Shown one piece after another: positions 10,706 through 17,158 of a stretch of 64,000 nucleotides of DNA. A program made the translations under genes and the position numbers. Source of the DNA: Streptomyces sp. NA02950. Lineage in GTDB: Bacteria > Actinomycetota > Actinomycetes > Streptomycetales > Streptomycetaceae. Under the pieces are notes generated by a model, which saw only the letters and a program-made list of their open reading frames with translations, ran no database searches and was not told where the DNA came from. Location of the stretch: assembly GCF_013364155.1 (NCBI RefSeq), contig NZ_CP054916.1, positions 4,461,001-4,525,000 of the forward strand, read 5' to 3'. Numbering within the stretch: the first letter of the stretch is position 1; every line of letters starts with the position of its first letter.

Positions 10706-11538
10706 GGCTTGAGGAAGCCCGCCCCGCTCAGCACCTTCTGGCCCCGCGCGGACTGCACCAGGTCGACGAAGGCCGTCGCCGCCTTGGCGTTCGGCGCGTT
10801 CTTCAGCGGGACGATCGGGTAGTCGTTGAGGGCCTTCGCCGACTCCGGGAACTCCACCCCGGCCACCTTGCCGCCCGCGGCCTTCACATCGGTCTTGTAG
10901 ACCACGGAGGCGTCCACCTCCTTCAACTCCACCTTGGTCAGGGCGCCCTTGACGTCCTGCTCGTAGGAGACGGGCGTCAGCTCGAGGTGGCCGGCGTCCA
11001 GCGCCTTCCGTGCGGCGGCGCCGCACGGCACCTCCTCGGCGCACAGCGCCACCTTCGTCCCGGACCGGGTGAGGTCCTTCAGGCTCTTGATCTTCTTCGG
11101 ATTGCCCGGGAGGGTCGCGATCTCCAGCTGGTTGCGGACGAAGGTGGCCGGAGTGCCCTTGGCGTCCTTGTGATCGGTGACGGTCTTCATCGTCTTCGGG
11201 CTCGCGGCGGCGAACACATCGGCGGGAGCGCCGGAGGTGATGCTCGCCGCGAGGGCGTCGCTGCCGCCGAAGTTGAACGTCACCCTGGTGCCGGGGTGTT
11301 GCTTCTCGAAGGTCTTGCCGAGCGCGTGGAAGCTCTCCTTCAGCGAGGCCGCCGCGAAGACCGTCACCGTGCCGGACAGCTTGTCCGAGGAGGAGCCGGA
11401 GTCCGCCTTCCTGGAGCTGTCGCCGGAGTCGTCCGAGGAACCGGAGTCGTCCGAGGAACAGCCGCTGAGCGTCAGGGCCGCCACGGCGAGGCCGCCGACC
11501 ACGCGCAGGGCACGACGGGATGCGGAACGGGTGGTCAC
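10702..11538 (-). CDS. modA: Molybdate-binding lipoprotein ModA
   Basis: 278 residues from GTG 11538. Lipoprotein signal with lipobox LSGC (Cys at about residue 27), then a Ser/Asp-rich tether. The mature part is a type II periplasmic-binding fold with family marks VTVFAAASLKESF, FNFGGSDALAASITSGAPADVFAAAS and DASVVYKTDVKAAGG. It captures molybdate or tungstate outside the membrane and delivers it to ModB. First gene of modABC, 63 bp downstream of the HTH-TOBE regulator on the same strand. Confidence 0.93.
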   Translation of the reverse strand: MTTRSASRRALRVVGGLAVAALTLSGCSSDDSGSSDDSGDSSRKADSGSSSDKLSGTVTVFAAASLKESFHALGKTFEKQHPGTRVTFNFGGSDALAASITSGAPADVFAAASPKTMKTVTDHKDAKGTPATFVRNQLEIATLPGNPKKIKSLKDLTRSGTKVALCAEEVPCGAAARKALDAGHLELTPVSYEQDVKGALTKVELKEVDASVVYKTDVKAAGGKVAGVEFPESAKALNDYPIVPLKNAPNAKAATAFVDLVQSARGQKVLSGAGFLKP

Positions 11539-12304: not shown

Positions 12305-13498
12305 TCAGTCGCTCAATGGCTGGTGCCGGTGCTTCCAGCGGAGGGCCGGTTCCTCACCGATCCGGTAGGCGTGTGCCTCGGGGGTGACCTCCATGCGGAC
12401 CGTGCTGATGTCCGGTTCGCCTGCGTCGTGCCAGGCGGTCAGGGTGCTTTCGATGGCGTCCCAGATGGTCACGGGACCGCCCTGCCGTACGGTCCACTCG
12501 TCACCGTCTGCGGTCAGCGCGGCGAACGCTTCCCGGCCGGTGTCGAACAGGTACACCGTCTCTCGGCTGTCGCTGATGGTACGTACGAGCTGGGCCCCGG
12601 GGGCGGCGAGCTGTGCCAGAAACGCCGGCATCCAGTCGTTCAGCACGTTGGGGGAAAGACCGGTCTTGCGCTCGGTGTCCGGGTAGGCGGCGCGGGCCGT
12701 GAGATCTCCGGAGAGAGGAACGACGGCTTCGGCGCGGGCCGGCATGAACGAGGTGCGGCCGATGATCCGGCCCGACGCCGTGCTGTCCTCGTTGACCGTG
12801 AGCTTGGCCAGACCGGTGCCGTAGGTCCAGGCGCTGGGGCCCACCGTGGCGAGGATGATCCCTCCGGGCTTGGTCTGCCTGATCCATGCGTAAGGGATGC
12901 GCCGTACGGCGCAGGTGGCGATGGTCCGGTCATACGGTGCGCGGCGGGGGTGTCCCAGGAGTCCGTCCCCGGTGATGGTCCAGGTGGAGTATCCGGCCAC
13001 TTCCAGGGCTGCGTCCGCGCGCTGTGCGACGGCCGGGTCCACTTCCACGGTGGTGACGCTGTCCTCTCCCAGCCGGTGGCACATCAGGCCGGTGGAGTAC
13101 CCCGTTCCCGTGCCGATCTCCAGGACGTTCATGTTGTCGTCCACGTCCAGGGATTCGAGCATCCCGACGACGGTGGAGGGCATGGTGGAGGACGAGGTGG
13201 GGAAGCCGGTTACCGGCCTGTCGGCGGCCTCGGCGGTCAGGTGGCCGTCGATCTGGGTCACCCATGTGTCGTTCTGGTAGACGAGGGCCAGCCATTGGCC
13301 AGGGTCGGTGTCGCGGCTGACGGGGGTGTAGTGGGTGAGGCCGTCCGGGCCCGTCTCGTGCTTGAAGAACATGGGAAGGAACAGTTCCCGGGGGACGGTT
13401 TCCACGGCTTTCCGCCAGGCAGGCGTCTTCAGGACGCCGCCCTCTTCCAGGTGGTCAGCCAGAGCGCGGCGGAGACGTACGGGGTCGAGTGGGTTCAC
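12305..13498 (-). CDS. tgmC: PIMT-like O-methyltransferase of an ATP-grasp peptide maturation system
   Basis: 397 residues from GTG 13498, overlapping the ATP-grasp stop by GTGA. The N-terminal half resembles protein-L-isoaspartate methyltransferase: SAM motif I VLEIGTGTGYSTGLMCHRLG, SVTTVEVDPAVAQRA and TGDGLLGHPRRAPYDR. A C-terminal extension of about 170 residues (from ASGRIIGRTSFMPAR) is the hallmark of the graspetide-associated PIMT group (TIGR04188 type). In fuscimiditide- and amycolimiditide-type pathways such enzymes methylate an Asp of the cyclised peptide, which then forms aspartimide. Its placement immediately after precursor and ligase fits that step. Last gene of the three-gene operon. 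Confidence 0.88.
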   Translation of the reverse strand: MNPLDPVRLRRALADHLEEGGVLKTPAWRKAVETVPRELFLPMFFKHETGPDGLTHYTPVSRDTDPGQWLALVYQNDTWVTQIDGHLTAEAADRPVTGFPTSSSTMPSTVVGMLESLDVDDNMNVLEIGTGTGYSTGLMCHRLGEDSVTTVEVDPAVAQRADAALEVAGYSTWTITGDGLLGHPRRAPYDRTIATCAVRRIPYAWIRQTKPGGIILATVGPSAWTYGTGLAKLTVNEDSTASGRIIGRTSFMPARAEAVVPLSGDLTARAAYPDTERKTGLSPNVLNDWMPAFLAQLAAPGAQLVRTISDSRETVYLFDTGREAFAALTADGDEWTVRQGGPVTIWDAIESTLTAWHDAGEPDISTVRMEVTPEAHAYRIGEEPALRWKHRHQPLSD

Positions 13499-14460
13499 GG
13501 TGTGGCTCCTTGCTCCAGGAGGTCAGCGAAAGCGGCGGCGATCGGTAGCCCGGTTTCGTCTTCGAGCCAGCCCCATTGGCCGTTGGGGTTCAGCTCCAGC
13601 CAGTGGAAGTCACCGTCATGGGTGATGCACAGGTCAAAGCTGCCGGAGGCAAGGCCGAAGTGTTCCAGGTGGGCGGTCAGGGCTTTTTCCATCCGGGTCG
13701 GGAGGGTTATGGGCCTGTAGGTCAGGGCGCTGTAATCGGCCCGCCAGTCCAACAGATCGGAGTCGATGCGGATTGCGAACACCTTCGGGCCGACGACGAC
13801 CACCCGCAGGTCCGCGACCTTGTTGATGCGGGCTTGGAACAGGTGCGGGACCACCGTCACGCTCTCGTCCACCTCGTCGGCGGTGACCGGTTCGGTCCAG
13901 GTGGTCAGCCCTACACCGTCGCTGCGCCGGTAGGGGGTCCAGCGCAGTGCCTTGTAGATCACGTGCTCGTGTTCTGCCATGAACGCACGGATGCCGGCCA
14001 GGTCGTTGGAGATCAGGGTGGGTGGGACCGTGAGGCCGAGGCGTTCGGCCACGGCCAATTGCAGGGGCTTGTGTTCCGCCGCGTAGTTGTGGAGCGGGTG
14101 GTTCACGTAGCGGCAGTGCGGCAGGGCGTACAGGGTGCCGCCTAGGCCGTGACGGACCTGGGCGGTTGAGAACCCGGCGTCCGGGTCGTCCAGGTGCTCG
14201 AAATAGGGCCAGGTGGGGCGGCGCCAGTAGACGGACCGCACCCCCTCCAGGGCGGTGTTCCTGGAGGGGGTCCGGAGGTGGCCGACGGGGGTGGCCGCCG
14301 GGCTGGCGCCGAACCGGGCCGACAGTAAGAGGCGGTCACCGATGTCGGAGGGGTCGAACCGCACCACGGGGACACCGCGCTGATTCAGTTCGGTGATCAC
14401 CATGTCGGCGGTTGCATCGTCCACTTCGGTGACGACCGCGACCGGTCCAGCGTCGGTCAT
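13495..14460 (-). CDS. tgmB: ATP-grasp ribosomal peptide maturase (graspetide ligase)
   Basis: 321 residues from ATG 14460, sharing one base with the precursor stop (TGATG). N-terminal pre-ATP-grasp segment (VAVVTEVDDATADMVITELN, VYWRRPTWPYF). The ATP-grasp core includes VPPTLISND, HVIYKALRW, the substrate-loop region VPHLFQARINKVADLRVVVV and the metal-binding end FDLCITHDGDFHWLELNPNGQW. That last motif matches the SAV_5884-type maturases (TIGR04187). These enzymes use ATP to join Asp/Glu side chains to Thr/Ser (ester) or Lys (amide) side chains of a precursor. Context decides the assignment: precursor upstream, PIMT-like methyltransferase downstream. Confidence 0.92.
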   Translation of the reverse strand: MTDAGPVAVVTEVDDATADMVITELNQRGVPVVRFDPSDIGDRLLLSARFGASPAATPVGHLRTPSRNTALEGVRSVYWRRPTWPYFEHLDDPDAGFSTAQVRHGLGGTLYALPHCRYVNHPLHNYAAEHKPLQLAVAERLGLTVPPTLISNDLAGIRAFMAEHEHVIYKALRWTPYRRSDGVGLTTWTEPVTADEVDESVTVVPHLFQARINKVADLRVVVVGPKVFAIRIDSDLLDWRADYSALTYRPITLPTRMEKALTAHLEHFGLASGSFDLCITHDGDFHWLELNPNGQWGWLEDETGLPIAAAFADLLEQGATP

Positions 14461-14720
14461 CAGTCCTGCTCGCTGTCCTGGTCGTGGTCGGTGTCGTTGC
14501 GGCTGTCCTGGTTGGTGGACTGCGGTTGCGTCTCGGTGCCCTTGCTCGTGCCGTGCTTGCCCATCTCCACGACGCCGCCCCGCGAGTCGCGGAAGACGGT
14601 GGTCTGGGTGGTGGGGTCGAGTTCGGCGGTGGCGTATCCGGGCTGGTAGGTGCTGGGGTAGGGACGCATCCGGCTAATGCCCCAGGGGATGCGCGGTTGG
14701 GCCGTCGTAGTGGTCTGCAT
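14460..14720 (-). CDS. tgmA: Graspetide (ATP-grasp-modified RiPP) precursor peptide
   Basis: 86 residues from ATG 14720, with a strong SD (GAGAGGGAA on the minus strand). The leader half carries the family motif PWGISRMRPYP (residues 12-22) and a second conserved segment, AELDPTTQTTVFRDSRGG (32-49). EMGKHGTSKGT (52-62) opens the probable core, matching the 'putative ATP-grasp target' group (TIGR04186). Residues 58-86 contain five Thr, four Ser, seven Asp and two Glu, and almost no hydrophobic residues: acceptors and donors for side-chain ester rings. Lys55 and Lys60 are possible amide donors. Ring topology and the leader cleavage site cannot be read from the sequence. No protease or exporter gene is adjacent. 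Confidence 0.92.
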   Translation of the reverse strand: MQTTTTAQPRIPWGISRMRPYPSTYQPGYATAELDPTTQTTVFRDSRGGVVEMGKHGTSKGTETQPQSTNQDSRNDTDHDQDSEQD

Positions 14721-14965: not shown

Positions 14966-15076
14966 CGTGTCGCCCGCGACGCACAGGGCAACGACTGCGG
15001 CCAGTGAGGCGAACACCGCAGCGACGATGACCCCGGCGCGGGCGATACGGACGAGGCGAAGGGCGGCGCTACGCAT
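14957..15076 (-). CDS. 39-residue single-span membrane peptide
   Basis: ATG 15076 to TAG 14957. Begins MRSAALRLVRIARAG and continues with one hydrophobic helix (VIVAAVFASLAAVVALCVAG). Positively charged N-terminus, so probably N-in. Its start overlaps the end of the 62-residue gene by 8 bp (ATGCGTAG), indicating translational coupling. Too short for an independent homology call; the overlap and codon bias support it being real. Fourth gene of the XRE-led set. Confidence 0.6.
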   Translation of the reverse strand: MRSAALRLVRIARAGVIVAAVFASLAAVVALCVAGDTTP

Positions 15077-15257
15077 CGGGGTTCTCCTCGCGCTGCTCGC
15101 GCGTGGCAGCGGTGTACGCGGCGAGGAGGGCCCCGCCCGTCCCGCATCCCGCGCCAGGCGTCAGGCACGACGGGCAAGCCGAGATGTGCTTGATGACCGC
15201 GTGCCACGCCTCCTCAACCTGGGTGGCGGTTGCGGCTGCGGTCTGCTGGGTGGCCAT
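15069..15257 (-). CDS. 62-residue Cys-containing small protein
   Basis: ATG 15257 overlaps the stop of the preceding gene (ATGA); ends at TAG 15069. Predicted mostly helical and soluble, with a compact Cys cluster in ISACPSCLTPGAGCGTGG (four Cys, C-x2-C then C-x6-C-type spacing with the third Cys). This could bind zinc or form a small redox/metal knuckle. No named family recognised. It is coupled on both sides within a four-gene set. Confidence 0.65.
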   Translation of the reverse strand: MATQQTAAATATQVEEAWHAVIKHISACPSCLTPGAGCGTGGALLAAYTAATREQREENPDA

Positions 15258-15850
15258 CAGGCTCCGGCCCCCTCGCGGGCGCGGCGCAGGGCGGTTACCA
15301 GCGCTTCCGCGTCGGACGGCGGGTAGTCCCGGGCGTGCCGGGGGCAGGCATACGTGATCCCGCCGCCGAGACTGCCGCCGTGCTCCTCGCCGACGATGAC
15401 CGGCTCGTCCGTCGGCAACTGGCAGCGGTGGCACAACTGTCGGCCCTCGACGCGGGGGCCGAGTTCGGCATGGTCCGCGGCGGCCAGGGCCTCCCACAGG
15501 CGCTGGGCGTCGGTCAGGTACCGGCCGGGCCCGAGCGGTACGCGCCAGTGCGGGCGCGGGCCCTCACGCCAGTCGGCAGAGGGCACACCGAGATACGTCA
15601 CTTCGTCGACCAGCGCGGTGAGCACGCGGACTTGGCGGAGATTCCAGCTGCGGGCGGAGCCGACCGCGACGAGCCAGTACAAGGTGCCGTAGGTGTCCTG
15701 GATGACGGCCCCCGACTCCGCCCCGAGGTGCTGGAGGGCGCGTTCGCCGACGGGCTGCGCCACGCGGACGGCGTCCCAGTGACTCCCGACGGGTAACGGC
15801 TCGACGCCCCCGGAGGGAGGCGGCTTCCAGGGCAGGGTGCGGCTCGTCAT
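15257..15850 (-). CDS. Hypothetical protein with a C-terminal zinc-type motif
   Basis: 197 residues from ATG 15850, which has an SD-like GGAG; the frame also opens at ATG 15862. The N-terminal part (GSHWDAVRVAQPVGERALQH, AVIQDTYGTLYWLVAVGSA, PHWRVPLGPGRYLTDAQRLW) resembles the shape of a bifunctional primase/polymerase-like N-domain found in actinobacterial accessory genes, but no catalytic acidic triad is evident. Near the C-terminus, LCHRCQLPTD and ITYACPRHARD give a C-x2-C...C-x2-H set, likely to bind zinc. Function unknown. It lies 100 bp downstream of the XRE-TPR gene and is coupled to the 62-residue gene. Confidence 0.65.
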   Translation of the reverse strand: MTSRTLPWKPPPSGGVEPLPVGSHWDAVRVAQPVGERALQHLGAESGAVIQDTYGTLYWLVAVGSARSWNLRQVRVLTALVDEVTYLGVPSADWREGPRPHWRVPLGPGRYLTDAQRLWEALAAADHAELGPRVEGRQLCHRCQLPTDEPVIVGEEHGGSLGGGITYACPRHARDYPPSDAEALVTALRRAREGAGA

Positions 15851-15914
15851 GGTCGACTCCATGCAACGGTCTGTGTGCTGACCGTCACATCGTGCCGAGC
15901 GGTCGGGGCGTCAG

Positions 15915-15952: not shown

Positions 15953-17158
15953 CTACATGCCGACCCACGCAGCGAGCGACGACAAGGACTCAGGCGCCCG
16001 TCGCTGCCGACGCACCAAGGTGCCGATCGTCTCTCGCACCAGAGGGTGGTACCGGGCCTGCTGCGGGGCCACCCGGCGAGCCCGGACCAGGAACCGTTCG
16101 GCAGGTTCTGCCTTGCCCATCTGGGCGTAGGCCCGGGCCATCTCGATGTAGTACCGGCCGACCCGCATCCGAGGATGCGTCTCGGGGAAGTGCAGCTTCT
16201 TCGACAGCTTGACCGCCTCGCCGAGTTCACCGAGCTCCACGTTGGTCGCGACATCGAAGTGCTGCACGTTCGTCAAGCCGAACGAGGACCAGTACACCTC
16301 CGGCACATCCCGGCCAATCTCCTTGGCGGTCTCGTGCGCGAGACCCATGTATCCGGTGACGGCATCAGCGTCTTTGGCCTGGGCGGCCGCGATGGCCGAC
16401 GCGAGATGCAGACTCCCGGTCACGGCCAGGGCATCCACGTCTCCGGGCCGCTCGACCTGATCGACCAGATCGTGGCCGCGCGCGATGACCCGTAGCGACA
16501 TCTGATTGTTCCCGCGCCGGAGCAGCATGCTGGAGCGCTTGTTCAAACGGATGGCGAGCAGCAGCGGGTCCTGCGCCTGCTCGGCCATCCAGCCCATGCG
16601 CTCCAGCGCGGTAGACGCCAGATCGTGGTAGCCGACCCGGTAGGCGAACTCGTAGGCGACCCAGTAGCACCAGCTCAGCGACGAGGCCGCGCGCCGGTAC
16701 TCCTCGCCCGGAGGCAGGAGGCTGACCATCGTGGTGAGTTCCCCAAGGAGGCCAGGCAGCTTCGAACCAATGTCCCTGTACTCCGTAGCGGAGGCCCCGG
16801 CGCACAGTGCCCTGACGTCGCCCTCGACTTGGCCGATGAGCCGGGGGGCGATGTGAGGGTCGGGTCCGAGGTCGTAGAGATCCAACGCCTCCGACAACGG
16901 GGAGATGAGGCGATCGAGGTGGTCTTGCTGGAGCTCCGAGATGTACGGCTGGCCGTTGAGCACGGCGACATCGACCTGGAGGACTCGGGCGACGGCGGCC
17001 ACGACCGAGGGTGTGGCCGGCGCCAGACCCCGCTCGACCTTGGCGATGGTGCTGCGGGCAAGGAACGCGCGCTGAGCGAGGGCAGTCTGGGTGAGCTGGC
17101 GCAGTTTCCGGTAGTCCGCGATTCGAGCGCCGATGTGTTCCTCATTGCTCTGTGGCAT
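15953..17158 (-). CDS. XRE-family regulator with TPR-like sensory domain
   Basis: 401 residues from ATG 17158. XRE HTH at residues 8-65 (GARIADYRKLRQLTQTALAQ, STIAKVERGLAPATPSVVAA). The rest is all-helical with tetratricopeptide-like repeats (for example RVGYHDLASTALERMGWMAE and YYIEMARAYAQMGKAEPAER). This architecture is widespread in Streptomyces and often controls a neighbouring small-protein or natural-product gene set, in some cases by binding a peptide; the latter is family knowledge, not shown here. An 8-bp inverted repeat lies 10 bp upstream of the start, suggesting autoregulation. Confidence 0.88.
   Translation of the reverse strand: MPQSNEEHIGARIADYRKLRQLTQTALAQRAFLARSTIAKVERGLAPATPSVVAAVARVLQVDVAVLNGQPYISELQQDHLDRLISPLSEALDLYDLGPDPHIAPRLIGQVEGDVRALCAGASATEYRDIGSKLPGLLGELTTMVSLLPPGEEYRRAASSLSWCYWVAYEFAYRVGYHDLASTALERMGWMAEQAQDPLLLAIRLNKRSSMLLRRGNNQMSLRVIARGHDLVDQVERPGDVDALAVTGSLHLASAIAAAQAKDADAVTGYMGLAHETAKEIGRDVPEVYWSSFGLTNVQHFDVATNVELGELGEAVKLSKKLHFPETHPRMRVGRYYIEMARAYAQMGKAEPAERFLVRARRVAPQQARYHPLVRETIGTLVRRQRRAPESLSSLAAWVGM

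Follow-up and report, generated by a model that had tools for sequence, protein, structure and literature searches.

A probable graspimiditide cluster of Streptomyces sp. NA02950 with a shared core type and a predicted Asp-Ser aspartimide site

Introduction

Which rings would be closed in the product of a three-gene graspetide locus of Streptomyces sp. NA02950, and is their pattern peculiar to this locus? An earlier note, made from the letters of a 64,000-nucleotide stretch of the chromosome (the window), had read the genes as those of a precursor peptide, an ATP-grasp ligase and a PIMT-like methyltransferase, of the family behind fuscimiditide and amycolimiditide, and had supposed that the ring pattern of the core should be its own. 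In the group 13 graspetides, or graspimiditides, Thr-Asp esters build a stem-loop and a methyltransferase later modifies one Asp of the loop (PMC13001092). Three surveys counted 1,326, 962 and 1,432 group 13 clusters, and according to a 2026 review the characterised graspimiditides are four: fuscimiditide, amycolimiditide, albusimiditide and SsfA(BM) (PMC13001092).

Results

Three overlapping genes of the graspimiditide type

The three minus-strand genes overlap as the earlier note described, by 1 nt between precursor and ligase and by 4 nt between ligase and methyltransferase:

14460..14720, minus strand: precursor peptide gene, 86 amino acids (TIGR04186, PF14408; 64 homologs)
13495..14460, minus strand: ATP-grasp ester ligase, 321 amino acids, ATG start (TIGR04187)
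12305..13498, minus strand: PIMT-like aspartyl O-methyltransferase, 397 amino acids, GTG start (TIGR04188; SAM motif GTGTG at 129; WHDAGEP, of the form WXXXGXP, at 356)

We find that all three proteins exceed the curated NCBIfam cut-offs of the family models with which the note had proposed to check them: the precursor scores 81.7 bits against TIGR04186 (cut-off 25), the ligase 391.5 bits against TIGR04187 (cut-off 350) and the methyltransferase, rightly called PIMT-like, 483.3 bits against TIGR04188 (cut-off 380). The Pfam cut-offs of PF14408 (precursor) and PCMT (methyltransferase) are exceeded as well. With scores above the family cut-offs, the observation is genuine and not due to chance. 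The ligase also matches six solved ATP-grasp proteins at E <= 0.01 (9bou, 5ig8, 5ig9, 7m4s (AMdnB), 7mgv (CdnC) and 7drm), which we take to be graspetide ligases. Finer points of the earlier description fared unevenly. Both precursor motifs are present, RMRPYP at residues 17-22 and MGKHGTS at residues 53-59; the ligase has the ELNPNGQW motif but does not end in it, since ELNPNG stands at residue 289 of 321; and residues 55-86 of the precursor hold the five Thr, four Ser and two Glu that were counted and no Phe, Trp or Tyr, but six Asp and not seven. A WXXXGXP motif is reported in graspimiditide PIMTs (PMC13001092), and the proposed kinship with fuscimiditide and amycolimiditide is upheld by the scores against all three TIGR models, which place the locus in group 13 (PMC13001092). 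We therefore assign a probability of roughly 0.87 to the reading that this is a group 13 graspetide (graspimiditide) cluster with ester and aspartimide chemistry of that type. The cluster is an intact, well-supported and uncharacterised member of this established group. Three core strings had no match in the papers searched, and TIGR04186 likewise had none.

No peptidase was found among the flanking ORFs scanned, and the transport genes there belong to molybdate and cation families, in keeping with the note's remark that no protease or exporter is linked. The scanned neighbours include a molybdate transport set, which lies on one flank, a CBM2 protein, two histidine kinases and a cation efflux protein. 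Upstream of the cluster are ORFs 15069-15260 and 15257-15862 and, on the cluster's strand, a regulator that is a candidate for a link to it:

15953..17158, minus strand: HTH/TPR regulator, upstream (HTH_31 above cut-off, NsdA-family match below cut-off)

ORFs 25-32% identical to this regulator occur in 3 of 15 related loci. Group 13 clusters may adjoin DUF397/DUF5753 genes (PMC13097080); a Pfam search of the regulator gave no match to DUF5753. Of the window ORFs of at least 60 amino acids within about 10 kb, leaving aside the three genes and ORFs that overlap them, none was matched in more than three of the 15 related loci. ARAGORN found no tRNA in the window, and nothing between positions 11000 and 18000 matched Rfam at gathering score. 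A mobile-island setting has no direct support, there being no tRNA and only ordinary neighbours among the ORFs scanned, though the flanks differ between species. No conserved promoter was seen in the 350 bases upstream in ten loci, which align poorly beyond the start codon and its surroundings; L037 and L039 alone also resemble one another further up.

Two conserved blocks in the leader

The leader carries two conserved blocks:

14679..14687, minus strand: PWG motif of the leader, residues 12-14, proposed as the site that the ligase recognises, the putative equivalent of RPFG of ThfA (from conservation)
14553..14636, minus strand: second leader block, residues 29-56 (DPxTQ..G..H; from conservation), with three short strands predicted by AlphaFold at moderate to low confidence

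RPFG is the recognition element of the ThfA leader (PMC13003496). The near-invariant PWG, with P12 kept in 61, W13 in 60 and G14 in 58 of 65 precursors and a weighted conservation of 0.93-0.98 across 149 precursors, resembles RPFG in position and likeness. RMRPYP is likewise conserved among the homologous precursors; by this comparison it is more likely PWG than RMRPYP that matches the ThfA element. Near-invariant in the 149 precursors (effective number 18.8) are, besides PWG, residues D35, P36, T38, Q39, G48 and H56, and mean information is 2.95 bits over residues 11-22, 2.69 over residues 29-56 and 2.77 over the core. If RPFG-type recognition is valid here, then the DPxTQ block would serve a purpose other than ligase recognition. 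AlphaFold places strands at residues 31-34, 40-44 and 50-55 (mean pLDDT 75, 71 and 56 over residues 31-40, 41-50 and 51-60, respectively) in a precursor model that is weak overall, with a mean pLDDT of 62 and a pTM of 0.28. ThfA is described as a random coil (PMC13003496).

A core shared across a subfamily

The core of the precursor is delimited as follows:

14463..14552, minus strand: core region, residues 57-86, with predicted esters and a predicted aspartimide at D72 (from homolog comparison)

The supposition that its ring pattern would be its own was not borne out. The same core type is found in 53 of the 64 homologous precursors, so the pattern belongs to a subfamily, and we reject the idea of a unique core. 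Over residues 54-86 identity to the window precursor averages 0.87, against 0.67 for residues 12-53, the core being the higher of the two in 61 of the 64 homologs, and eight columns of the 65-precursor alignment are invariant, H56, G57, D72, D82 and D86 among them. Measured against nine orthologs, all three genes show more synonymous than non-synonymous change (mean pN/pS 0.21-0.44). The ratio of mean pN to mean pS is 0.21 in the core (residues 54-86) and 0.44 in the leader, and the values of the ligase (0.31) and the methyltransferase (0.35) lie between. The core value comes from 33 codons only, and it is the lowest of the four regions in just five of the nine pairs and the highest in three, which is why our claim of constancy rests on identity relative to the leader. 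Judged in that way, the core clearly changes less than the leader. When ten diverse precursors were combined into a profile, 1,652 candidates yielded 837 clusters at E <= 1e-3; the best 120 of the 837 were used, which biases the core statistics towards near relatives.

Precursor-like matches occur in 112 of 295 genomes of the genus and, among the matches listed, an identity of 67% is reached in four genomes (G000, which is the source genome, G007, G462 and G031). In a named collection, which gave 15 loci, the closest ligase relatives are those of Streptomyces tuirus, S. macrolidinus, S. olindensis and S. ipomoeae, and further relatives come from Kitasatospora, Actinacidiphila, Kribbella and Longispora; precursors of the window type are named from Streptomyces, Kitasatospora, Actinacidiphila and Yinghuangia. 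The source genome itself encodes four TIGR04187 ligases above cut-off.

We also note three further observations in the source genome. A broken relative of the cluster lies at G000:C1:5773534-5774140 (loci L005, L006 and L052), where the precursor frame is open and has a core of the sister type described below, and where only pieces of a ligase (profile positions 1-47 and 50-115) and of a methyltransferase (298-363) were found. At G000:C1:8525631-8526749 (L004, L064) a TIGR04187 ligase accompanies a TIGR04186-like short precursor, and the window's methyltransferase has no match in the stretch fetched; this is perhaps a graspetide cluster of different build. Finally, equal-scoring PIMT-like matches at G000:C1:72607-73020 and 9546701-9547114 lie on opposite strands and equidistant from the ends of the 9,619,720-base contig, a layout that points to a linear chromosome with terminal inverted repeats no shorter than about 73 kb.

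Mirror spacing and the predicted rings

The core has the sequence pattern expected of a stem-loop, with Thr before and Asp after a single loop Asp. Relative to D72, Thr occupies positions -14, -10, -8 and -3 of the window core and Ser position -4, and Asp follows at +4, +6, +8, +10 and +14. Among 57 window-type cores, the window included, T-10, T-8, S-4, T-3, D0, S+1, D+4, D+6, D+8, D+10 and D+14 are present in every one, and position -14 holds Thr in 53 cores, with Ser in the other 4. Fuscimiditide (AGTMRVTYPDGQKPGQSDVEKD) provides a reference. We take D10 as its loop Asp, because no other Asp occurs in the loop and a Gly comes next; relative to it, Thr lies at -7 and -3, and Asp at +8 and +12. 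Its rungs are T7-D18 and T3-D22 (PMC12291112), that is, -3/+8 and -7/+12, and so form a mirror arrangement. A Thr at -3 from the loop Asp, where the innermost ester Thr of fuscimiditide stands, is common to fuscimiditide and the window type.

A sister core type (GTETSTxTNxDSxxDQGHDQDSxQD, mostly from Streptomyces) resembles the window type in its leader, its NxDS loop motif and its outer Asp spacing, but is one residue shorter ahead of the loop and has Gly in place of D78 (position +6) in 61 of 64 cores. All 64 have T-13, T-9, T-7 and T-3, which are mirrored by Asp at +4 (62/64), +8 (61/64), +10 (64/64) and +14 (61/64); position -4 is variable (Thr or Ser in 45/64), and T-5 mostly has no opposing Asp.

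We favour, at somewhat better than even odds and on the strength of these spacings, the rungs T58-D86, T62-D82, T64-D80 and T69-D76, perhaps with S68-D78 as well, which would give four or five esters; the predicted aspartimide site is D72, before S73. A shuffling test of the Asp side was applied to 15 core sequences, one of which could not be anchored. Of the 14 scored, 11 have the full set of Thr rungs, with Thr-only p values from 0.019 to 0.985 and p < 0.05 in 5 cores, or in 1 when Ser is counted; a P0062-type subgroup, with two of four rungs, accounts for the value of 0.985. Fisher combination of the 14 Thr-only p values gives 3.6e-5, which is only a guide since the cores are related. Taken alone, the window core fits three of four rungs with Thr only (p = 0.50) and four of five with Ser (p = 0.29), so that its register is not fixed by this test, and a rival offset of -4 fits equally well with three Thr.

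The larger set of cores is more telling. From 147 distinct cores we set aside 51 of the window type, 14 that could not be anchored and 11 with another tail length or ending, leaving 71 that were tabulated. In 70 of these, each Asp that stands at a scored mirror position faces a Thr or Ser; the one exception is a window-type core that the filter had let through. Of the 11 anchored cores outside the table, 10 carry four mirror Thr rungs and the remaining one carries three. Moreover, the alignment of cores for conserved Thr/Asp pairs that the earlier note had proposed reveals not only mirror spacing but joint replacement of a Thr and its mirror Asp: in L007 and L013 (one subgroup) and in L017, T-11 and its mirror Asp replace T-9 and its mirror Asp, and P0057 has neither T-7 nor D+8 and has D+6 opposite T-5. 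L091 keeps T-9 without a mirror Asp and has no T-5. As sequence evidence on the ring pattern, the linked swaps are better than the shuffling p values. The cores of L017, L007, L013 and P0057 amount to natural exchanges of one presumed ester rung for another, and provide a ready test set for the rung choice of the ligase. Comparison with solved structures gave a best match of E 0.29 for the precursor profile, for an SsfA-like core profile nothing but repeat proteins, none better than E 0.039, and no match for the sister core profile; a mixed core profile matched fuscimiditide, which is itself among the rows of that profile.

The reading that survives best beside the four-rung ladder is an extension that overlaps with it, in which five esters form as in SsfA, the fifth through S68-D78 or the C-terminal carboxylate. 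S-4 and D+6 are both constant in the window type, whereas the sister type has mostly Gly at +6 and varies at -4; SsfA(B) has five esters (PMC10787088), and ThfB takes Ser instead of Thr (PMC12291112). Against this, S68 adjoins T69, which is awkward for two rungs, and the constancy of both S68 and D78 means that covariation within the type is no test of the pair. We consider a fifth ester a real prospect but one with odds of only about one in three. It is a good deal less likely that a cluster of this same type closes its core in a long-loop register, with T64-D76 (loop 65-75), T62-D78 and T58-D82 as three esters and D80 and D86 left free. This is the offset of -4 that the mirror spacing of three window-core Thr allows, and its 11-residue loop falls within the 10-12 residues of known graspimiditides (PMC12291112), whereas the favoured register would have a loop of 6 (T69-D76). 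However, it does not fit the sister type, in which the partner of T62 at +6 is Gly in 61 of 64 cores and yet the equivalent of T62 is Thr in all 64; P0057 lacks the equivalent of T64 together with D+8, not D+4; and no role is left for the invariant T69, D80 and D86. A decayed or silent cluster that makes no product is very improbable, for despite the broken relative in the source genome and the lack of a protease gene nearby among the ORFs scanned, the three frames are intact and synonymous change predominates in all three genes.

Discussion

Under the favoured ladder, biosynthesis would begin with the ATP-grasp enzyme binding the leader near PWG and phosphorylating Asp side chains, which Thr (or Ser) hydroxyls would then attack to give nested side-chain esters. 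The esters of amycolimiditide form in strict order, loop first and then down the stem (PMC13003496), and here the ladder might likewise be zipped from the loop downwards through T69-D76, T64-D80, T62-D82 and T58-D86, with S68-D78 as a possible fifth rung. The methyltransferase would next methylate D72 in the closed loop, and loss of methanol would close the Asp-Ser aspartimide, whose hydrolysis may lead mostly to isoAsp. Ester rings followed by an aspartimide, as the earlier note had it, is the expected order, established in relatives of this cluster. The leader would be removed by a protease encoded elsewhere than beside the cluster; according to a 2025 paper the native protease is known for no graspimiditide (PMC12291112).

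What makes the locus valuable is that its rings can be predicted and tested, that its predicted aspartimide site is Asp-Ser and that its core remains constant as the leader drifts. The mirror rule yields a predicted ring pattern that can be checked by one mass-spectrometry experiment, and the locus would put aspartimide formation at Asp-Ser to the test, all four characterised members having Asp-Gly (PMC13001092). The main task ahead, according to the 2026 review, is to tie graspimiditides to biological function (PMC13001092), and a subfamily with a constant core and a drifting leader is a good place to seek a conserved target. A bolder proposal, which we regard as a long shot, is that a fixed five-rung ladder with an Asp-Ser aspartimide is kept near-constant in four genera through one conserved target or partner, with the DPxTQ..G..H block, a predicted small beta-meander, serving as a docking site or being retained as part of the product.

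How does the locus compare with known systems? Its ligase shares the ATP-grasp superfamily with the microviridin ligases MvdC and MvdD but scores far under their equivalog cut-offs (161.4 bits against 425 and 144.2 against 475), so that it is not classed as a microviridin ligase. Imiditides and type I pamtides have a related methyltransferase with an identical C-terminal motif but are made from linear precursors without an ATP-grasp ligase (PMC13001092); here a ligase gene overlaps the precursor gene, and that assignment does not fit. With the graspimiditides the locus shares the set of precursor, ATP-grasp ligase and PIMT-like methyltransferase, a leader motif of the PWG/RPFG type and a core that appears, as far as its residues can tell, Thr-rich and then Asp-rich around one loop Asp. 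It differs from them in the Asp-Ser of its loop, where the four characterised products have Asp-Gly (PMC13001092), and in a predicted inner loop of 6 residues as against the known 10-12 (PMC12291112).
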